DNA from: Nakamurella panacisegetis
GTDB lineage: Bacteria > Actinomycetota > Actinomycetes > Mycobacteriales > Nakamurellaceae
DNA: 64,000 nucleotides
Direction: 5' to 3'
NCBI RefSeq assembly: GCF_900104535.1
Contig: NZ_LT629710.1
Span: forward strand, 2,790,001-2,854,000
The position numbers and the translations under genes were made by a program. The notes under the pieces are model-generated. The model made no database searches and was not told the origin of the DNA. It saw nothing but the letters and a program-made list of their open reading frames with translations. Positions 13,935 to 23,097 of the stretch are shown in pieces; within the stretch, counting starts at the first letter, position 1, and each line of letters opens with the position of its first letter.

Positions 13935-13975
13935 CGCCGAGAGCCGGCACCCCGGCGGGGCACCGGCTCTCGGCG
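13935..13975 (-). terminator. Hairpin terminator of the OpuC-type operon
   Basis: A perfect 13-bp stem CGCCGAGAGCCGG with its complement, loop containing a smaller CCCC/GGGG stem, located 36 bp downstream of the binding-protein stop on the minus strand. Confidence 0.75.
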
Positions 13976-14011
13976 ATCAGGTGTGGCGACCGGACGGGCG
14001 CCGACGTCAGA

Positions 14012-15034
14012 TCAGGACAGTCCCTGAGCCTTCAGCCAGTCCTGGGCGACCTTCTCGGCGTCGGTGCCGCCGTACTCCTGCTTGTCCAGGGCGGTGAGGG
14101 TGGCCGTGTCCAGCTTGGCCGACACCGCGTTCAGCGTCTTGGTGATCAACGGGGTGACCTTCTTGGTGGCGATCAACGGCAGCACGTTCTGCGCGGTGTA
14201 GAGGTTCTTCGGGTCCTGCAGCACGACGAAACCGTTCTCCGGGATCGACGGGTCCGTCGTGAACAGGTCGGCCGCGTCGACCTGACCGTTCTTCAGCGCG
14301 GTGACGGACAGCTTGCCTCCGGCATCCAGCGTCTTGAACGTGCCGAACTTGACCCCGTAGGTCTTGTCCAGACCGGGAACGCCGTCGGCGCGCGTCTTGA
14401 ACTCCGGGGCCGCCCCCAGCACCATCGAGGATGCGTGGGAGGCGAGGTCACCGATGGTCTTCAGGTTGTACTTCTTGGCCGTGTCGGCGGTGACGGCGAT
14501 CGAGTCCTTGTCCTGCGCCTCCGACTGCTCGAGCACCGTCATCCCAGCCGGCCCGACGACCGCCGGCAGCGCCTTGTAGATGTCGGCCGAGCTGGCCGCG
14601 GTCGACGTCTTGTCGAAGTAGGCCAGCAGGGTGCCGCTGTACTCCGGGATCAGGTCGATGGACCCGTCCTTCAGCGCCGGGATGTAGACCTCCCGGCTGC
14701 CGATCTTCGGCTTGACCGTGGCATCGACGCCCTTCGCCTTCAGCGCGTCGGCGTAGATGTACATCAGGATGACGCTCTCGTCGAAGTTGGCCGAGCCGAC
14801 GACGATTGGGCCGGTCGTGCCGCCGCCGGCCGCAGAGCTCGCCCCACCGGAAGCAGAGCTGGCCCCGCCGGAAGCAGAGCTGGCCCCGCCGGAGCCGGCC
14901 GTCGCCCCGGCCGAGGCGGCGGCCGCCGATGCGCTCGAGGTGGTCGGTGAGCTCGATGAGCTGGAACCGCACGCGGCCAACACCAAGGTGGAGGCGGCGA
15001 GGGCGCCCACGGCACCGATCAGTCTGCGATTCAT
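14012..15034 (-). CDS. OpuC/ProX-type quaternary-amine substrate-binding lipoprotein
   Basis: A 340-residue lipoprotein that captures the ligand for the ABC importer encoded upstream. The signal peptide ends in the lipobox LVLAAC (cysteine about residue 21), followed by a Ser/Ala/Gly-rich linker with GGASSAS repeats (to about residue 75) and an OpuAC/QAT-type domain starting PIVVGSANFDESVILMYIYAD. The family usually binds glycine betaine, choline, carnitine or, for EgtU-type members, ergothioneine. Aromatic-cage residues cannot be placed without alignment. ATG at 15034 follows AAGGAGAAACAGGA. Last gene of the operon, 68 bp after the permease. Confidence 0.93.
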   Translation of the reverse strand: MNRRLIGAVGALAASTLVLAACGSSSSSSPTTSSASAAAASAGATAGSGGASSASGGASSASGGASSAAGGGTTGPIVVGSANFDESVILMYIYADALKAKGVDATVKPKIGSREVYIPALKDGSIDLIPEYSGTLLAYFDKTSTAASSADIYKALPAVVGPAGMTVLEQSEAQDKDSIAVTADTAKKYNLKTIGDLASHASSMVLGAAPEFKTRADGVPGLDKTYGVKFGTFKTLDAGGKLSVTALKNGQVDAADLFTTDPSIPENGFVVLQDPKNLYTAQNVLPLIATKKVTPLITKTLNAVSAKLDTATLTALDKQEYGGTDAEKVAQDWLKAQGLS

Positions 15035-15102
15035 TCCTGTTTCTCCTTGTGAAGGGTCCGGGGCGCCTCTTGGATGGCGCACCGATAGGGGAAAACGGAT
15101 AG

Positions 15103-15867
15103 CTAGGGAACAGCCACCACGGGTGCTCGTAGGTGCGACCTTTTGTATCTGGCGGTAATTCCCCGAGACGTCACATAGCGCTGGATCGTTGCCACAATGA
15201 GATCGACCACCAACGCCAGCAGCGCGACCAGCACCGCGCCGGCGAGCAGTTGCCCGGTGGCCGTGTGGCTGTCCGGTGTGTCCTGGAAAGGTCCGCTCTG
15301 GAAGCCGTTGTAGATCGGATGCCCGAGGCCGCCGAGGCCGATGTACGCCCCGACGGTCGCGGTGGCGATCACCTGCAGGATGGCGCTGCGCAAGCCAGAG
15401 ATGATCAGCGGCAGCGCGTTGGGGAGTTCGACGCGGAGCAGGACCTGACCCCCGGTCATACCCATTCCCTTCGCCGCGTCCTTGATGGCCGGCTCCACCT
15501 GCTGGATGCCGGCGTAGGTGTTGGACAGGATCGGCGGGATGGCCAGGAGCACCAGCACGATCTCCACCGGCAGGATGAAGACGGTGTTGCTGTGCCCGTG
15601 GAAGTGCGGGGACAGGATCACGTAGAGCAGCACGATGAGGCCGAAGGTCGGGAGCGCGCGGCTGGCATTGACCGCGCCGACGACGACGGCCCGGCCCCGG
15701 CCGGTGTGGCCGATCGCCATCCCGACCGGGAAGGCGACCACCGCGGCGATCAACACCGCGATGAACGAGTAGGTCAGGTGCTGGACGATGTCCGTCCACA
15801 GACCGGTGTCGCCGCCGTTGTCGTGCCAGTTCGCGCTGGTCGTGAGGTAGTTCCACAGATCGTTCAC
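15103..15867 (-). CDS. OpuC-type ABC transporter permease (second)
   Basis: A 254-residue inner-membrane permease of the OpuCB/OpuCD (BPD_transp_1) family with five to six helices. The EAA-loop region is visible at QQVEPAIKDAAKGMGMTGGQ, which contacts the ATPase. GTG at 15867 is chosen because it overlaps the upstream stop as GTGA with AAGGCGG ahead; another GTG eight codons earlier has no binding site. Paired permeases with a separate binding protein are the classical OpuC layout. Confidence 0.92.
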   Translation of the reverse strand: MNDLWNYLTTSANWHDNGGDTGLWTDIVQHLTYSFIAVLIAAVVAFPVGMAIGHTGRGRAVVVGAVNASRALPTFGLIVLLYVILSPHFHGHSNTVFILPVEIVLVLLAIPPILSNTYAGIQQVEPAIKDAAKGMGMTGGQVLLRVELPNALPLIISGLRSAILQVIATATVGAYIGLGGLGHPIYNGFQSGPFQDTPDSHTATGQLLAGAVLVALLALVVDLIVATIQRYVTSRGITARYKRSHLRAPVVAVP

Positions 15868-16526
15868 GGGTTCGGCACCGCCTTGCGCCACGGGGTGAGC
15901 AGCCGGCTGATCAGTTGGATCAGGAAGTCAAGGGCCAGCGCCAGCAGCAGGCACAGAACGATGGCCAGTCCGATCGGGCTGTACGGATCGTTTCCGGCGT
16001 GGAAGCCGGTGTCGATCAAGGTCCCGAGTTGCGCGGTACCGACCAGCGTGGCGACGGCGACCAAGCTGACGTTCGACACGGTCGCCACCCGGACGCCGGC
16101 CGCGATGACCGGCACCGCGAGGGGCAGCTCCACCGCGAAGAAGCGGCCGACGGCCTTGTAACCCATCGCCGTGGCCGCCTGCTTGGTCTCCGCCGGTACG
16201 GACTTGAGGCCGTCGGCGACCACTCGGACCAGCAGCGCGACGGCGTACGCGGCGAGGGCGACGATGATGTTGACGACGGACAGGATCTGCGTGTGCAGGA
16301 TGCCGGGCATCGCGACGAAGAGCACGAGCGAGGGGATCGTGTAGATCAGGCCCGCGATGCTGATCAGCGCGGGGTAGGCGAACTTGTAGCGGGCCGCCAG
16401 CCAGCCCAACGGGAGGGCGATCACCAGGCCGATGACCACGGGCAGCACGGACAGGTAGAAATGGGCCCACAGGTAGGCCCACACTCCCGTCGGACCGCTG
16501 GCGTGGTCGCGGAAGTAGGTCAGCAT
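15864..16526 (-). CDS. OpuC-type ABC transporter permease (first)
   Basis: A 220-residue permease with about six hydrophobic segments and the coupling loop VPAETKQAATAMGYKAVGRF. It starts at ATG 16526, overlapping the stop of the ATPase gene (ATGA), and ends overlapping the second permease. Together with the ATPase and binding protein it forms a complete importer for a quaternary ammonium compound. Confidence 0.92.
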   Translation of the reverse strand: MLTYFRDHASGPTGVWAYLWAHFYLSVLPVVIGLVIALPLGWLAARYKFAYPALISIAGLIYTIPSLVLFVAMPGILHTQILSVVNIIVALAAYAVALLVRVVADGLKSVPAETKQAATAMGYKAVGRFFAVELPLAVPVIAAGVRVATVSNVSLVAVATLVGTAQLGTLIDTGFHAGNDPYSPIGLAIVLCLLLALALDFLIQLISRLLTPWRKAVPNP

Positions 16527-17656
16527 CAGCCGCTCACCGCCGGTGCTCCGTACCGGCCGGCGGCGGCCCTGGCCTCGATGCGCGCGACCACCTCGGCGGC
16601 GGTCACCGTGCCGCGGAAGCGGCCGTCCTCGTCGACCACGACGCCGCGCCCGGACGGCGACGACAGGGCCGCGTCGAGCGTGTTGCGCAGGGTCCCGCCC
16701 TCGGTGGCCAAAGTCCCTCCGAGGTTGAGGATGGCCGGGGTGATCTGCATCGACCCGTCATGGACGCCGTGGTCGACGTTGAACCAGCCCTGCGGGCTGT
16801 TCGCGCTGTCGACGACCAGTACCCACCCGTCCTCGGCCGCCCGGACTCCCTCGGCCACCGTGGCGCCGACGGCGACGGTGGTCTCGGACCGGACGGGCAC
16901 CGTGTCGGTCGCGAAGCCGAGGGCACGGTACCCGCGGTCGCGTCCGACGAAGCCGGCCACGAACGAGTTGGCCGGATGGGAGAGCAGCTCGGCCGGGCTG
17001 GCCAACTGGGCCAGCACCCCGCCGACGTTCAGCACAGCGACCTGGTCGCCCAGCTTGATCGCCTCGTCGATGTCATGGGTGACGAAGACGATGGTCTTGC
17101 CGAGTTCGGATTGCAGCCTTAGGAACTCCTGCTGCAGCTGTTCCCGGACGACCGGGTCCACCGCGGAGAACGGCTCGTCCATCAGCATCACCGGCGGGTC
17201 GGCGACCAGGGCCCGGGCCACGCCGACCCGTTGTTGCTGGCCGCCGGACAGCTGAGCCGGATAGCGCTCGGCGAACCGCGCCTCGAGCCCGACCCGCTCC
17301 ATCAGCTCCATGGCCTTGGCCCTGGCCTGTTTCTTGTTGTGTCCGAGCAGGCTGGGCACCGTGATGATGTTGTCCAGGATGGTCCGGTGGGGGAAGAGAC
17401 CGGCATGCTGGATGACGTATCCGATACCCCGTCGCAGGGTGGCCGGCGGCACCTTGCCGGTGTCCTGGTCGTCAAGCCAGATCGTGCCGCCGGACGGTTC
17501 GATCATCCGGTTGATCATGCGCAGCGAGGTCGTCTTGCCGCACCCGGACGGCCCCACGAACACGGTGATCTGCCCGGACGGAGCGGTCAGGCTCAGGTCG
17601 TTGACCGCCACCGTGCCGTCGGGGTACCTCTTGGTCACTGAGTCGAACTTGATCAT
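16526..17656 (-). CDS. OpuC-type ABC transporter ATP-binding protein with CBS domains
   Basis: ATPase of the importer, 376 residues from the ATG at 17656. Walker A is GPSGCGKTTSLRM, the signature LSGGQQQRVGVARAL, Walker B VMLMDEPFSAVD and the switch histidine FVTHDIDEA. A C-terminal part of about 130 residues (from about 235) with AAEDGWVLVVDS and a terminal GVVVDEDGRFRGTV resembles the CBS pair that senses ionic strength or nucleotides in OpuA/OpuC ATPases. An in-frame ATG at 17752 would overlap the iclR stop and add 32 atypical residues; the internal start is preferred but not certain. A tiny ORF precedes it. Confidence 0.92.
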   Translation of the reverse strand: MIKFDSVTKRYPDGTVAVNDLSLTAPSGQITVFVGPSGCGKTTSLRMINRMIEPSGGTIWLDDQDTGKVPPATLRRGIGYVIQHAGLFPHRTILDNIITVPSLLGHNKKQARAKAMELMERVGLEARFAERYPAQLSGGQQQRVGVARALVADPPVMLMDEPFSAVDPVVREQLQQEFLRLQSELGKTIVFVTHDIDEAIKLGDQVAVLNVGGVLAQLASPAELLSHPANSFVAGFVGRDRGYRALGFATDTVPVRSETTVAVGATVAEGVRAAEDGWVLVVDSANSPQGWFNVDHGVHDGSMQITPAILNLGGTLATEGGTLRNTLDAALSSPSGRGVVVDEDGRFRGTVTAAEVVARIEARAAAGRYGAPAVSG

Positions 17657-17670
17657 GCGGACCCCGCCAT
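17653..17670 (-). CDS. Possible five-codon leader ORF before the OpuC ATPase gene
   Basis: ATG GCG GGG TCC GCA TGA (MAGSA) has AGGAG five bases ahead, a better binding site than the ATPase start has. Its stop overlaps the ATPase ATG as ATGA, so reinitiation could couple the two. It could equally be chance, because actinobacterial starts often lack a strong site. Confidence 0.3.
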   Translation of the reverse strand: MAGSA

Positions 17671-17748
17671 GCTCGCTCCTGTTGGTCGGTTGGCTCGTAC
17701 TGCTGCGTCGACGACCGGTGGTCGCCCCGTGCTCGGCATTTCCGTTCC

Positions 17749-18501
17749 TCATCCGGTCTCTGCGATGACGAGCCGGCCCGGGCGGGTCGGCACGGCGAAC
17801 TGTTCGCCGAGGAGACGGGCCTCGGCGCTGACCGCGGCACCGATGCGCGCGGCCTGCTCGTCATCGATACGGTAGGTCGGACCCACGACAGAGATCACGG
17901 CGACCGCCGCCGCCCGTCCTCCGGGGGGCGCCGGCCGACAGACGGGAGCGGCGATGGCGGTGACGTCCGGCTCGACCGCTGACCGCATCACGACGTGGCC
18001 CGATGGGGGCACCTCGCCGCGGAAGGCGGCGCCGGCGGCGGTACCGCGCAACGGGATGCTCCGACCGATCCAGCTGGTGTGCCGGACCGAGTGCAGACCT
18101 TCGACCATGCCGGCGTAGACAGCGGTGTCGGTGGGACCGGGTAGGCACAGGTACGTCGATTCGCTGCAGGCCCCCACGATGCGCTGCAATGCCGGTTCGG
18201 CCGCGACGACCAGGGCCTGTCGGCTCAGGGCGGCCGCGCCGAGCTGGATCAGCCGCGGCCCGGCCCGGAACAGCCCGCGCTCGTCCCGGCTGACCAGGTT
18301 CGAGGTCTCCAGGGTGCGCAGGAGGCGGAGGGCGGTGCTGGGGGCCAGACCGGCGCGTCGTGCGCACTCGGCCAGGCCGATCTCGCCCTGGTCGCAGACC
18401 TCGGCCAGCAGATCCATCGCGCGTTCGACGGCACGGGTGGACGACGAAGGGCCGGAAGCCAACATTCGCGCGGGAAGTCCGTTCGTGGATACTTCGGTCA
18501 T
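17749..18501 (-). CDS. IclR-family transcriptional regulator
   Basis: A 250-residue regulator with an N-terminal winged helix (SSSTRAVERAMDLLAEV, helix-turn-helix ARRAGLAPSTALRLLRTL) and a C-terminal IclR effector domain beginning about residue 100. ATG at 18501 is preferred to an upstream TTG (18543), whose extension has no domain sense. It is the first gene of the OpuC-type operon and is divergent from the ammonia-lyase-like gene over a 174-bp gap. IclR proteins in this position usually respond to the substrate of the neighbouring catabolic genes. Confidence 0.93.
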   Translation of the reverse strand: MTEVSTNGLPARMLASGPSSSTRAVERAMDLLAEVCDQGEIGLAECARRAGLAPSTALRLLRTLETSNLVSRDERGLFRAGPRLIQLGAAALSRQALVVAAEPALQRIVGACSESTYLCLPGPTDTAVYAGMVEGLHSVRHTSWIGRSIPLRGTAAGAAFRGEVPPSGHVVMRSAVEPDVTAIAAPVCRPAPPGGRAAAVAVISVVGPTYRIDDEQAARIGAAVSAEARLLGEQFAVPTRPGRLVIAETG

Positions 18502-18624
18502 CCGAGGCTTCTTTCTTGCCAACCAGCGGAAGAATGCTGCCAACGAGTGAAACCTTGGCCCGGCGCGGATCGTCCGTCAAGACCTACCGGGGTTCGTGAC
18601 AATGGCGTTACACCGCTTTCATCC

Positions 18625-18641
18625 GGGCCGGTCACCGGCCC
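18625..18641. promoter_or_regulatory. Inverted repeat between iclR and the lyase-like gene
   Basis: GGGCCGG-TCA-CCGGCCC, a perfect 7-bp inverted repeat in the divergent promoter region, 34 bp ahead of the lyase-like start. It could be a regulator site or an RNA hairpin; no consensus IclR box was recognised. Confidence 0.35.
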
Positions 18642-18675
18642 GAGGACCGAGACGACGACGAAATGGGAAGGCAAC

Positions 18676-20211
18676 GTGGGTACTGCTGATCAGGCCGGGA
18701 GCGGATCCGGCGTCGAGCCGTTGGTGGTCGACGGCCGTTCCCTGACCGTCGCCGGTATCCGTTCGGCCGCGTTTCGAACCCGGCCGATCGAGTTGGCGGT
18801 CACCGGCCGCGAGCGGGCTCGGCGGTCGCAGGAGTTCGCCGACCGCACCGCGGGCGAGCGTCCGCTGTACGGCCGCTCGACCGGCGTCGGCGCGAACCGC
18901 ACAGTCTCAGTTCCGGGTGATTCGGGCGATCATGCCGTCCGGCTGCTGCGCAGCCACGCCGCGTCGACCGGCGAGCGGCGGTCGCCCGAGCGGGTGCGCG
19001 CCATGCTCGTGGTGCGGTTGAACCAGCTGGCCACCGGCGGCAGCGGCGTGGACCCGCAGGTCCTGGACGGATTGGTCGCGATGATCGCCGACGACGCCCT
19101 GCCCGCGGTCCGGGAGCTGGGCAGCATCGGCACCGGTGACCTGTCCGCCCTGGCCACCACGGCCTTGGCGCTGATGGGGGAGGGCCCGACCTCCTCGCCG
19201 GTGCGGCACATCACCGGCTTCGGGCCGGCCGATGGTCTGGCGTTCATTTCCAGCAACGCGGCGGTGATCGCCGACGCCGCGCTGGCCGTGTCCTCGATCC
19301 AGGAGTCCGCCGCTGCCGCTCTCGTGGTCGCGGCACTTACCTTCCACGCGGTCGACGGCAACGCCGAGGCGTACTCCGACGGGGCCCTGCGCACCACGCC
19401 GTTCGCCGGAGCGGCGGACGCGGCCCGGACGATGCGCTCACTGATCGGGGCCGACCCGTTCGGCAGTCGCCGGTCGGGGCCGTCCGGACGGGCGGCCGCG
19501 CGGATCCAGGATCCGTTCGGTCTGCGAGCGATCCCACAGGTCAACGGCCCGGTACTGGATCGCGTGGCCGAGGCCGCCGAGGTGGTCTCGAGACTGGCCA
19601 ACGCGCCGACCGAGAACCCGTTGGTCGCCGTCGACGACGCCGATCCCACTGGCGGTGTGGTGGCTCACCACGCCGGCTTCCACCAGGCCTACCTGCAGAT
19701 GGCGCTGGACTCGTTGGCCCTGGCGGTGGCGCAGAGTGGCCAGCTCGTGCTGGCCCGGATGGCCACGCTGATCGAGCCGTCCTTCACCGGGCTCCCGCCG
19801 TTCCTCGGCGACGGTACGCCCGGCGCATCCGGGGTGATGGTCTGCGAGTACGTGGCCGCCTCGGCGCTCGGGGCGATGCGGGCGGCTGCGGCGCCGGCCG
19901 GCCTCCAGACCGTGACCCTGTCTCGCGGCGTGGAGGAGGACGCCTCGTTCGCGTCGCTCGCGGCCACGCAGTGCCTGACGATTGCCGATCGGTACCGGCA
20001 ACTGGTGGCCTGCGAGCTGGTGACGGCCGTGCGGGCCCTGCGCATGCTCGACCGGCCGCCCGCGGGGCGCATCGAGGAGATCCTGGCTCGGTGCGCGGCC
20101 CTGCCGACGGATCTCCGCGACCGGGATCTCACCGAGGACCTAGCCCTGGCCATCGACCTGCTCCCGGCGTTGGCCGAGCTGACCGGTCGGCCCGCCCCGG
20201 CCCGGTCTTAG
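18676..20211 (+). CDS. Aromatic amino acid ammonia-lyase family protein with altered MIO triplet
   Basis: A 511-residue member of the histidine/phenylalanine ammonia-lyase superfamily, normal HAL length. Conserved landmarks: YGRSTGVGANR near residue 65 (catalytic-loop tyrosine), GSIGTGDLSALA near 149, QDPFGLRAIPQVNG near 278 and NAPTENPLVAVDD near 314. The usual Ala-Ser-Gly that self-cyclises into the MIO electrophile is replaced by G152-T153-G154 and the loop is one residue shorter. The DNA reads cleanly, so no frameshift explains it. GTG at 18676 has GGGAAGG ahead. Divergence from an IclR/OpuC operon suggests it acts on the imported compound, perhaps a trimethylammonium amino acid such as ergothioneine or hercynine; other lyase substrates or a non-catalytic role remain possible. 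Confidence 0.85.
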   Translation: MGTADQAGSGSGVEPLVVDGRSLTVAGIRSAAFRTRPIELAVTGRERARRSQEFADRTAGERPLYGRSTGVGANRTVSVPGDSGDHAVRLLRSHAASTGERRSPERVRAMLVVRLNQLATGGSGVDPQVLDGLVAMIADDALPAVRELGSIGTGDLSALATTALALMGEGPTSSPVRHITGFGPADGLAFISSNAAVIADAALAVSSIQESAAAALVVAALTFHAVDGNAEAYSDGALRTTPFAGAADAARTMRSLIGADPFGSRRSGPSGRAAARIQDPFGLRAIPQVNGPVLDRVAEAAEVVSRLANAPTENPLVAVDDADPTGGVVAHHAGFHQAYLQMALDSLALAVAQSGQLVLARMATLIEPSFTGLPPFLGDGTPGASGVMVCEYVAASALGAMRAAAAPAGLQTVTLSRGVEEDASFASLAATQCLTIADRYRQLVACELVTAVRALRMLDRPPAGRIEEILARCAALPTDLRDRDLTEDLALAIDLLPALAELTGRPAPARS

Positions 20212-20260: not shown

Positions 20261-20914
20261 TCAGATCATGTCGTCCAACGGGCGTAGCTCGTCGGCATAG
20301 GAGACGGACCGGCGGCGCAGCATGCCGTTGCCGCTGACCGTGTACTGGCCCATCCGCCACAGCGGGGGCGAGTACGCGTGGATCGACACGCTCCCCGCGT
20401 CGCGGCCGGTCAGGCGATGGATGTGGTCCGGGCCGAAGGCGAATACCAAGCCGTCCTGGACGTCGGTGGACATGCTCGGGGCGCCGACGGCCAGGTTGTG
20501 CTCGGTCAGGCAACCCTGGGTGACGGCGACGGCACCCGAGGAGATGTCGTGGTCGTGCCAGCCGGTGTCGTTCTGCGGCGTCCAGCACAGCACCCAGATG
20601 TCCACGTGGGTGTCGCGGTGCAGGGAGACGTAGTGCCGTTTGTCGTCGGAGAACGCGACGTGCTCGGCCCATCGATTGGTGTCCGCCGCGATCCCGGCGG
20701 CGAGTTCGCGCAGTTCCTCCGAGTCCAGGTCCCGGCCGGGCAGGTTCTCCAGGGTGATGCCGCCGGTGGCGTTGGCCACCACGTCGGCGATGAGCCTCGC
20801 GCCGTTGACCGGACGGCCTTCGGTGGACGGCAGCGTGACGATGGTGGCCGCCTCGTCCGCGAGGTCGTCGGGAAGTCGGGATGGAACGACGGCGGTGACT
20901 GCGGGAACGGTCAT
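20261..20914 (-). CDS. Cysteine dioxygenase-like cupin
   Basis: A 217-residue protein of the cysteine/3-mercaptopropionate dioxygenase family, mononuclear iron enzymes that oxidise a thiol to a sulfinate. The three iron histidines appear as H120 and H122 in GWHDHDISSGAVAV and H166 in DHIHRL. A glycine (G127) occupies the position of the mammalian cross-linked cysteine, as in bacterial members. ATG at 20914 overlaps the stop of the upstream amidohydrolase (ATGA) and has AAGGAGG ahead; the longer open frame upstream is overlap. Its true thiol substrate is unknown. Confidence 0.88.
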   Translation of the reverse strand: MTVPAVTAVVPSRLPDDLADEAATIVTLPSTEGRPVNGARLIADVVANATGGITLENLPGRDLDSEELRELAAGIAADTNRWAEHVAFSDDKRHYVSLHRDTHVDIWVLCWTPQNDTGWHDHDISSGAVAVTQGCLTEHNLAVGAPSMSTDVQDGLVFAFGPDHIHRLTGRDAGSVSIHAYSPPLWRMGQYTVSGNGMLRRRSVSYADELRPLDDMI

Positions 20915-21822
20915 GCTGGGCCTCCTTCGAGCAGGCGGGTGGGGTTGGCGACGCTGAAGGCGTGGTCGGCGGCGTCGCCCATGCGGAATTGGGTCGGTCC
21001 CGCGTACGGCCGGTCGGTGCCGTTGACGACGACGTCGATGCCGAGCACCCGGACCAGGGCGTCGACGGCCCTGGCCCCGTAGGACGAGGTCTCCACGAAG
21101 GTCAGACGGTCGATCGGCGCCGGGTTGCCGCCGCCGCGGACGGAGAACCGTTCGTGGTGGACCGGAGCCAGGCCGCCGCCGGCGACGAAGCAGATGCGGA
21201 GTTGCGGGAGCATGGGCCGTCCCGCCACCTGCCACGACCACCAGGACGCCGTCATCTGGGCCGTGTAGTCGACCACGGCCGGCCACCAGGACGGGAGCTC
21301 CTCGGCCTCCGCGGAGGGCGCGACCGGACCCGGGTGGACCAGCACCGGCTTGTCGGCCTCCTCGCAGACGCGCAACACCGGGGCCAGCCGCTCGACGGCC
21401 CGTGGGGTGCGCATCGACGTGGCCGGGATCTGCAGCCCGACGAAGCCGTCGGCCAGCCGTGCGGCCAGTCCGGCGAGGTCCGGTTCGGTGCTGTGCACCG
21501 CGGCCCAGGCCCGGAACGGCGTCGGGAGGGCGGCGGCGCCCCGGTGGTACGCGTCCAGCAGGGGTTCGGCCACGTCCACCGGGAGCGCCTCGATGCCCAG
21601 GGGACTGGACAGAGACACGATGGCAATGGCCAGATCGGGGTCCAACGCTCGCCGGGCGGCCGGATCGTGGTCCTGGGGGCGCACCTGGAACGGCGGTTCG
21701 CCGGGTAGGGCCAGAGTCCATCCGTCGAGGCGCGGGTAGGAGTCCGACCGGCGGAGGGCGTCGATGAATGTCCGCGGCCACAGATGCTGGTGAACATCGA
21801 TGGCGCCCGCGATCCTCCCCAC
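20911..21822 (-). CDS. Amidohydrolase family 2 (metal-dependent hydrolase)
   Basis: A 303-residue TIM-barrel hydrolase. Metal-site landmarks are DVHQH near the N-terminus, PVLVHPGP in the middle and NGTDRPYA near the C-terminus (barrel-end aspartate). The GTG at 21822 is chosen because AGAAGGAGG lies five bases upstream; an earlier GTG at 21858 would put the start inside the 40-bp palindrome and lacks a binding site. First gene of a two-gene operon with the cupin. Family 2 enzymes hydrolyse amides or decarboxylate, often in ring or side-chain catabolism; substrate not known. Confidence 0.85.
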   Translation of the reverse strand: MGRIAGAIDVHQHLWPRTFIDALRRSDSYPRLDGWTLALPGEPPFQVRPQDHDPAARRALDPDLAIAIVSLSSPLGIEALPVDVAEPLLDAYHRGAAALPTPFRAWAAVHSTEPDLAGLAARLADGFVGLQIPATSMRTPRAVERLAPVLRVCEEADKPVLVHPGPVAPSAEAEELPSWWPAVVDYTAQMTASWWSWQVAGRPMLPQLRICFVAGGGLAPVHHERFSVRGGGNPAPIDRLTFVETSSYGARAVDALVRVLGIDVVVNGTDRPYAGPTQFRMGDAADHAFSVANPTRLLEGGPA

Positions 21823-21844
21823 CGGCGCCTCCTTCTGAACTGCA

Positions 21845-21884
21845 GTGAAGCGGTTCACTGATACGTATCAGTGAACCGCTTCAC
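21845..21884. promoter_or_regulatory. Perfect 40-bp palindrome with paired LacI-type operators
   Basis: Each arm is GTGAAGCGGTTCACTGATAC, centred between 21864 and 21865. Each arm contains a LacI-type half-symmetric 12-mer (TGAAGCGGTTCA at 21846-21857, TGAACCGCTTCA at 21872-21883), and the centre TGATACGTATCA is a third CG-centred 12-mer. It is 22 bp ahead of the amidohydrolase start and about 170 bp ahead of divergent lacI, so it is probably that regulator's operator. Confidence 0.8.
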
Positions 21885-22053: not shown

Positions 22054-23097
22054 ATGCCCGACCGCCGCCGCCGGCCGACCCTCAAGGACATCGCCGAGGA
22101 GACCGGCTTGTCGGCGGCCGCCGTTTCCTATGCGCTGCGCGGCCTGCAGGTACCGGTGGAGACGCAGGACCGGGTGCGTGAAGCAGCCGAGCGACTGGGC
22201 TATCAGGCGGATCCGATCGCCCGGGCCCTCGCCTCCGGGCGGACGGGCAACGTCGGGCTCCTCTGTGGGTCGCTGGAGGACATCTGGCAGCAGGGCGTCG
22301 CCGCCGCTCTTGGGCGAGGTCTGCTCCAGGCCGGCCGGCAGGCGCTGATCGTGGATGCGACCAACAGCCCCGAGCAGGAGCGGACGCTGGCTGCGCGGCT
22401 GGTCGACCAGCGGGTCGATGCACTGATCGCCATGCCCATCGACCCGAAGGCCGCTCACTGGGCGGGCATCGCCGAACGGGTGGTGCTGGTGTCGATCGGG
22501 GATGGGCTGCCCGGGGCGGCTACCGCGGCGGAGGTGGTGTTCGACAACGAGGCGGCCGTCGCCGACGCACTGCGCGAGCTGGCCAACGCCGGGCATCGTC
22601 GGGTCGCCGTCCTGACCTCCATGAGCGAGAGCACCCCGGACCGTCCGGCCGAGGCGGTCGTGCACCGGGTCGGCCCGGCCCTGGGTATCGACGTCCGCCT
22701 GGTCACCGCTCCGCACGACCTGCAGGGCGCCACGGCCGCTGCCTGGCGCCTGCTCAGCGCGGCCGACCGACCGACGGGGGTGCTGTGCCTGTCCGATTCG
22801 CTGGCGTACGGCGTCTACGCGGCCGCCCGTGAGCTCGGCCTCGCACTGCCCCAGGACGTCTCGGTCATGGGGTTCGACGACCATCCGCTGTCGGCGCTGC
22901 TGACCCCGCCGCTGTCCAGCTATCGGTGGCCGGTGGAGGAACTGGTGACCACAGTCGTCCGGCGGACCGTCGAGGCCATCGAGCAGGGCAGCACCGGACG
23001 GCGTCGGGTGCTGGTGGCCCAGCCCCGCCGCCGCGGATCGGTCGCTCCGCCGCCCGTCCCGGCGGCGGCCGGCGTGGCCGAGGGGACCCCATCGTGA
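22054..23097 (+). CDS. LacI-family transcriptional regulator
   Basis: A 347-residue repressor-type protein with the LacI helix-turn-helix TLKDIAEETGLSAAAVSYAL and hinge helix (ARALASGRTG), then a periplasmic-binding-fold sensor domain (SVMGFDDHPLSALLTPPLSS near the C-terminus). It is divergent from the amidohydrolase-cupin pair and faces a palindromic operator, so it most likely regulates that operon and itself. The C-terminus has a Pro/Ala tail. Ligand unknown; LacI members mostly bind sugars or nucleosides, but not always. Confidence 0.93.
   Translation: MPDRRRRPTLKDIAEETGLSAAAVSYALRGLQVPVETQDRVREAAERLGYQADPIARALASGRTGNVGLLCGSLEDIWQQGVAAALGRGLLQAGRQALIVDATNSPEQERTLAARLVDQRVDALIAMPIDPKAAHWAGIAERVVLVSIGDGLPGAATAAEVVFDNEAAVADALRELANAGHRRVAVLTSMSESTPDRPAEAVVHRVGPALGIDVRLVTAPHDLQGATAAAWRLLSAADRPTGVLCLSDSLAYGVYAAARELGLALPQDVSVMGFDDHPLSALLTPPLSSYRWPVEELVTTVVRRTVEAIEQGSTGRRRVLVAQPRRRGSVAPPPVPAAAGVAEGTPS

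Follow-up and report, generated by a model that had tools for sequence, protein, structure and literature searches.

What does an aromatic ammonia-lyase homologue act on when it has lost the residues that make its cofactor and lies beside an importer of the betaine type? The question is raised by a locus of the soil actinobacterium Nakamurella panacisegetis, contained in positions 2,790,001-2,854,000 of NZ_LT629710.1 (64,000 nt; this whole stretch is called the window below) of a 5.01-Mb genome in one contig, in which the genes for an IclR-family regulator and an ATP-binding cassette (ABC) importer, tightly packed on the minus strand, are divergent from a full-length lyase gene on the plus strand. 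A first-pass annotation had described this arrangement, and all of its genes were recovered with Pfam matches. Our analysis makes it probable that the lyase is a hercynine trimethylamine-lyase, acting in the breakdown of ergothioneine and feeding the histidine utilization (Hut) pathway. Ergothioneine, an antioxidant, and hercynine, its sulfur-free remnant, are made by fungi and some bacteria; to our knowledge, their complete breakdown by soil bacteria is only partly understood.

At the position of the GSVGASGDL motif of histidine ammonia-lyase (HAL), the window lyase reads GSIG-TGDL, with one residue fewer and the Ala-Ser-Gly triplet gone; judged from the alignment, it cannot form the 4-methylideneimidazole-5-one (MIO) cofactor in the usual way. 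Loss of the triplet had been noticed in the first-pass annotation and was borne out (GTGD versus GASGD). G-T-[GAS]-D was present in 120/120 lyase homologues (the best 120 of 1672, window copy included), and since all of these relatives among the matches listed share it, the lesion is no sequencing accident. The only other PF00221 match in the genome is a canonical HAL (GSLGCSGDL) located 2.4 Mb away, which adjoins hutU, M20 and hutF homologues. The crystal structure of the ergothionase of T. denticola (6s7j) has the same one-residue deletion at this site (SSIG-EGDI), and PMC13405746 states, with reference to the structural study, that ergothionase is without MIO.

A motif alignment of 39 proteins was examined, including 14 actinobacterial lyases, eight ergothionase-type proteins, 13 HALs and two proteins of a GSxGYL type described below. 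The window lyase carries GVGANR, SSNA and VE, and so has all three ergothionase-type features, namely GVGxN[KR] (13/14 actinobacterial and 8/8 ergothionase-type rows), S[SC]NA (again 13/14 and 8/8) and a residue other than Gln before the catalytic Glu (14/14 and 8/8). The HAL rows showed GFG (12/13), NGT (12/13) and Gln-Glu (13/13), while the two GSxGYL rows had GVG, kept Gln-Glu and were without S[SC]NA. The search for ergothionase-specific residues proposed in the earlier annotation thus found a match to ergothionase in both the lesion and the active-site motifs. Tyr49, Arg268, Asn298 and Glu404 (P0010 numbering), whose catalytic roles we take to be those of HAL, were invariant in 42 aligned rows, seven of them ergothionase-type. 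NCBIfam returned for the lyase only sub-cut-off matches to HAL, aminomutase, tyrosine ammonia-lyase (TAL) and phenylalanine ammonia-lyase (PAL) models. An ergothionase-type protein with GSVGQADM (302 bits to 6s7j) was also observed on Sinorhizobium meliloti pSymA (L033:4761-6428), its closest database record being named HAL/PAL/TAL family ammonia-lyase; four Rhizobiaceae plasmid matches (L034, L036-L038) considered as ergothionase sources turned out to be normal HALs.

The AlphaFold2 model of the lyase (predicted local distance difference test score 90.9) has the fold of HAL, tyrosine aminomutase (TAM) and ergothionase, and the fold comparison was tied among TAM (39.5), HAL (39.0) and ergothionase (38.8), without discrimination. 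In the tree, whose HAL, PAL and TAM rows are a convenience sample, the actinobacterial lyases and the ergothionase-type proteins each formed a clade of their own (support 100/100), and with all columns included both fell on one side of a branch supported at 98/94. When the four motif stretches were left out (540 to 491 kept columns), this union was recovered in 2% of bootstrap trees and the two GSxGYL rows separated from each other; the approximately unbiased test did not reject the union (p-AU = 0.243). Because the union depends on the motif columns, one origin is not claimed, and these sequences neither show nor reject common descent with ergothionase as against convergence.

Two genes beside the lyase, which the first-pass annotation had overlooked, point to hercynine. 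The dioxygenase P0007 shares 60-62% identity with the solved enzyme of Thermocatellispora tengchongensis, an ergothioneine dioxygenase (8qfl, 218 bits), and is, by sequence, its orthologue; H120, H122, H164, H166, H179 and Y181, invariant in 11/11 rows, comprise cupin-type His residues, to which metal roles are assigned by analogy, and the equivalents of His147 and Tyr149. The amidohydrolase P0008 is probably an ergothioneine-sulfinate desulfinase, as its co-occurrence with P0007 suggests: among the genomes of 101 relatives, 20 of the 22 having a homologue of either had both. No NCBIfam match was obtained for P0007 or P0008. The LacI regulator P0009 (22054-23097) belongs to the same conserved block and may regulate it. 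The dioxygenase/amidohydrolase pair was also seen without a lyase-clade match in four relatives of the same genus (G001, G008, G011 and G012), and desulfurization may stand alone in some relatives.

At least 546 genome stretches encode relatives of the lyase. Gene linkage was surveyed (tblastn, E <= 1e-10) in 101 loci, consisting of the best 80 of these stretches, 20 chosen stretches of relatives and an Arthrobacter plasmid (L035); at least two contigs were entered twice (L042/L129 and L052/L143), Streptomyces is over-represented and a number of flanks end with the contig. A binding protein gene was found near the lyase in 76 loci, and binding protein, ATPase and permease together in 75, so that a lack of conservation in the neighbourhood, raised earlier as a possible objection, does not apply. 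Also near the lyase were the dioxygenase (n = 33), the amidohydrolase (n = 31), hutU (n = 35), M20 (n = 31), hutF (n = 29) and a canonical HAL (n = 9), and 58 loci had the dioxygenase or hutU. The dioxygenase/amidohydrolase/LacI block occurred on either side of the lyase, as did hutU, and on the Arthrobacter plasmid the importer, hutU and lyase stand in a row, with hutU between the other two. The lyase-linked hutU of locus L051 was 76% identical to the hutU of that genome's own histidine cluster and 75% identical to the L035 hutU. At the genome level, the lyase clade (>220 bits, set at a gap in the list from 224.6 to 160.4, with at most 14 candidates scored per genome) was present in 23/101 relatives, and the dioxygenase in 17 of these 23 versus 4 of the 78 others (Fisher test, p-value = 5.7e-11, ignoring kinship).

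These results bear on two further proposals of the first-pass annotation. That a MIO-less lyase has ergothioneine, hercynine or some related betaine as its substrate gains support from context, namely the ergothionase-like motifs, the dioxygenase neighbour and the linkage with hutU. That import, sensing and elimination are encoded together is supported by linkage for the importer and the lyase, but not for the proposed sensor, as IclR genes were found in only 20 loci and many others had LacI (n = 38) or RpiR (n = 35) regulators.

In the pathway that we propose, the OpuC-type importer would take up ergothioneine and/or hercynine, P0007 would oxidize the thiol of ergothioneine to give ergothioneine sulfinate, and P0008 would strip SO2 from the sulfinate to leave hercynine. 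The MIO-less lyase would abstract the beta proton of hercynine and expel trimethylamine, and the resulting urocanate would join the ordinary Hut pathway of the genome as the substrate of hutU. MIO serves to activate a free amine as a leaving group, whereas trimethylamine needs no such activation, and ergothionase is the precedent; the cofactor would not be needed here, since a quaternary amine leaves readily as it stands and is unable to form the MIO adduct.

The importer consists of an OpuAC-domain binding protein, two ABC permeases and an ATPase, and is thus of the OpuC/ProX type by Pfam; the ATPase P0003 scored 309 bits against the NCBIfam proV model, below its cut-off of 326.6. Compared with AfProX, whose residue roles are presumed here, the binding protein P0006 keeps the equivalents of Tyr63, Asp109, Arg149 and Phe15, has Phe for Tyr190, and has Asp, Gln and Ala in place of Tyr111, Tyr214 and Lys13. 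For the ergothioneine importer EgtU, the accessible part of PMC9732360 names Gly244 (invariant), Phe293, Asn339, Tyr341, Tyr443, E375 and R379. Mapped through AfProX, P0006 has Tyr at the position of Phe293, Asp at those of Tyr341 and Asn339, Gln at that of Tyr443 and Phe at that of Gly244, that part of the source giving the correspondence for Phe293 and Gly244 only and the other positions being placed by us. An EgtU-type binding protein, a kind mentioned in the first-pass annotation, was rejected on these residues, P0006 being without the EgtU cage signature and the Gly244 equivalent as far as that source describes them. A second OpuC-like binding protein encoded in the genome (2940533-2941483) is likewise without most cage residues.

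Another MIO-less type was encountered in HAL-like proteins of Klebsiella, Priestia and Rhizobium plasmids, which have GS[VL]GYL for GSVGASGDL and are annotated as histidine or aromatic ammonia-lyases. On the Klebsiella plasmids, an importer close to that of the window (ATPase 58% and substrate-binding protein 47% identical) is directly followed by a GSVGYL lyase, which is adjoined by hutU, hutI and a hutF-like gene, and in K. michiganensis also by hutG and hutC; the binding protein has the same main pocket changes as P0006 except at Phe258, which is Leu in Klebsiella. The Priestia plasmid has a GSLGYL lyase with hutU and hutI, but with major facilitator superfamily transporters. The Klebsiella and Priestia loci support a function as betaine lyases feeding Hut. 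On the Rhizobium plasmid (L157), the same importer type is directly followed by a GSVGYL lyase and then by genes for a CoA-transferase, a 3-hydroxyacyl-CoA dehydrogenase and an enoyl-CoA hydratase (L157:11433-14367). These genes hint at a different fate or a different betaine, and no hut gene is annotated in this stretch.

We give about an even chance to a wider proposal, in which a new, actinobacteria-wide hercynine trimethylamine-lyase closes the gap between oxidative ergothioneine desulfurization and Hut, the GS[VL]GYL type, which in Klebsiella and Rhizobium follows an importer of the window's subfamily, became MIO-free independently, and MIO has been lost repeatedly where the leaving group is quaternary. 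No description of a hercynine lyase was found among the papers listed, one of which mentions ergothioneine dioxygenase in passing; this is weak evidence of novelty, as most subscription journals lay outside the search.

Several observations weigh against hercynine as the substrate. P0006 keeps only two of the four cage aromatics, so the full quaternary-amine cage is absent and the fit to a quaternary amine is poorer, and an importer of this type does not necessarily point to a histidine betaine, because the Rhizobium locus pairs it and a GSVGYL lyase with CoA-dependent genes rather than hut genes. Within the stretches covered, the dioxygenase and hutU were both found in only 10/101 loci, and 17/101 had none of the binding protein, ATPase, dioxygenase and hutU. 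The four relatives named above have the dioxygenase without the lyase and six relatives the lyase without the dioxygenase, while the hutU of the genome itself (390.8-392.5 kb) lies 2.4 Mb from the locus. The grouping with ergothionase vanishes without the motif columns, and we know of no measured activity for the actinobacterial lyase clade. The genome gave no match to TIGR03438 (EgtD), a model whose cut-off was passed by 0/14 control genomes either; on that result, ergothioneine and hercynine would both be foreign.

After a hercynine trimethylamine-lyase, the next most likely assignment, itself rather unlikely, is an ergothionase proper, which would convert ergothioneine into thiourocanate and trimethylamine, with the dioxygenase acting on thiourocanate or in a parallel route. 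The deletion and motifs are those of ergothionase, and the adjoining ergothioneine dioxygenase suggests that ergothioneine is handled. However, P0007 is orthologous to the solved enzyme, whose product after desulfination would presumably be hercynine, and the similarity of the L051 lyase-linked hutU to the histidine-cluster and L035 genes is what urocanate predicts. A dioxygenase acting on thiourocanate was dropped as a candidate, the structure match being to the ergothioneine dioxygenase. It is more doubtful that the lyase releases trimethylamine from another aromatic betaine, such as trimethyl-tryptophan, -tyrosine or -phenylalanine: the MIO lesion and importer type would suit any of them, and the Rhizobium plasmid shows this importer and a GSVGYL lyase beside CoA-dependent genes, but the hutU linkage and the ergothioneine dioxygenase favour an imidazole side chain.

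We regard it as very improbable that the protein is a HAL homologue with no lyase activity, whether degenerate or regulatory, as the lost cofactor triplet might suggest, given the four invariant active-site residues, the at least 546 stretches encoding relatives and the existence of a working MIO-less relative (6s7j). The slightest probability is given to a chance adjacency of the lyase and importer with an unrelated dioxygenase pair; some genomes do have one without the other, but the dioxygenase accompanies the lyase in 33/101 loci, on either side of it, and is concentrated in the genomes with the lyase clade, kinship being ignored in that comparison.

The features of the locus are listed in Table 1. 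The longest open reading frame (ORF) of the lyase starts at 18547, but the GTG at 18676, preceded by GGGAAGG, is the likelier start from the sequence. For P0003, an alternative in-frame ATG at 17752 would give an overlap with the IclR stop, and the P0008 stop overlaps the P0007 start. The region between the IclR and lyase genes is likely a shared promoter/operator.

Table 1. Features of the Nakamurella panacisegetis locus (window positions) and GS[VL]GYL lyases of other loci.
Feature	Position	Strand	Evidence or remark
P0006 substrate-binding lipoprotein, OpuC/ProX-type importer	14012..15034	-	Pfam OpuAC 174 bits; PDB relatives Lmo1422, AfProX, EgtUC
P0005 ABC permease 2	15103..15891	-	Pfam BPD_transp_1; 28 bp overlap with permease 1
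P0004 ABC permease 1	15864..16526	-	Pfam BPD_transp_1
P0003 ABC ATPase, betaine/proline/choline type	16526..17662	-	Pfam ABC_tran
P0002 IclR-family regulator	17749..18501	-	HTH_IclR and IclR_C above Pfam cut-off
Divergent intergenic region, ~174 bp	18502..18675	.	Gap between both likely start codons
P0001/P0010 MIO-less aromatic-lyase homologue	18676..20211	+	Pfam Lyase_aromatic (PF00221) 334 bits
Lost MIO triplet site, Gly-Thr-Gly-Asp for Gly-Ala-Ser-Gly-Asp	19129..19140	+	Alignments
P0007 ergothioneine dioxygenase orthologue	20261..20914	-	218 bits to 8qfl
P0008 distant amidohydrolase	20911..21858	-	PF04909 25.9 bits, just below cut-off 26.4
P0009 LacI-family regulator	22054..23097	+	Pfam LacI, Peripla_BP_3
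GS[VL]GYL lyases	L154:8791-10323, L159:9806-11338, L151:586-2124, L157:9905-11455		

If the hercynine assignment is true, hundreds of genes named histidine or aromatic ammonia-lyase (at least 546 stretches) would be misnamed trimethylamine-lyases, the MIO cofactor would be dispensable once the leaving group is already quaternary, and an overlooked bacterial source of trimethylamine would be added. A route from ergothioneine to histidine catabolism would also become directly testable in an actinobacterium.

Among known systems, ergothionase (6s7j and the ergothionase-type proteins of Burkholderia, Sinorhizobium and others) shares with the window lyase the aromatic-lyase fold, the deletion at the same site and the motifs, although 6s7j is only 22% identical in a structural alignment and has Gln-Lys where the window lyase has Glu-Tyr, other ergothionase-type rows having Glu-Lys, Gln-Lys or Glu-Ala. 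Unlike ergothionase, the window lyase and its relatives are linked with an ergothioneine dioxygenase and hut genes, and the substrate is probably hercynine. HutH is alike in fold, length and the positions of the catalytic Tyr and Glu, and the product of the window lyase is probably also urocanate, but the latter is without Ala-Ser-Gly and Asn-Gly-Thr, and a canonical HAL is encoded elsewhere in the genome. EgtU is a fusion of permease and binding domain, in keeping with the residue numbering given above, whereas the permease and binding protein of the window are separate ORFs; the two importers share the OpuC/ProX-type binding fold and, for the residues described in the accessible part of PMC9732360, the Glu and Arg that correspond to E375 and R379. 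An actinobacterial pathway of ergothioneine dioxygenase and ergothioneine sulfinate desulfinase has reportedly been described with the PDB 8QFL series. P0007 is orthologous to its first enzyme and P0008 is probably the second, and the Nakamurella locus differs in adding a lyase and an importer that would carry hercynine on to urocanate.

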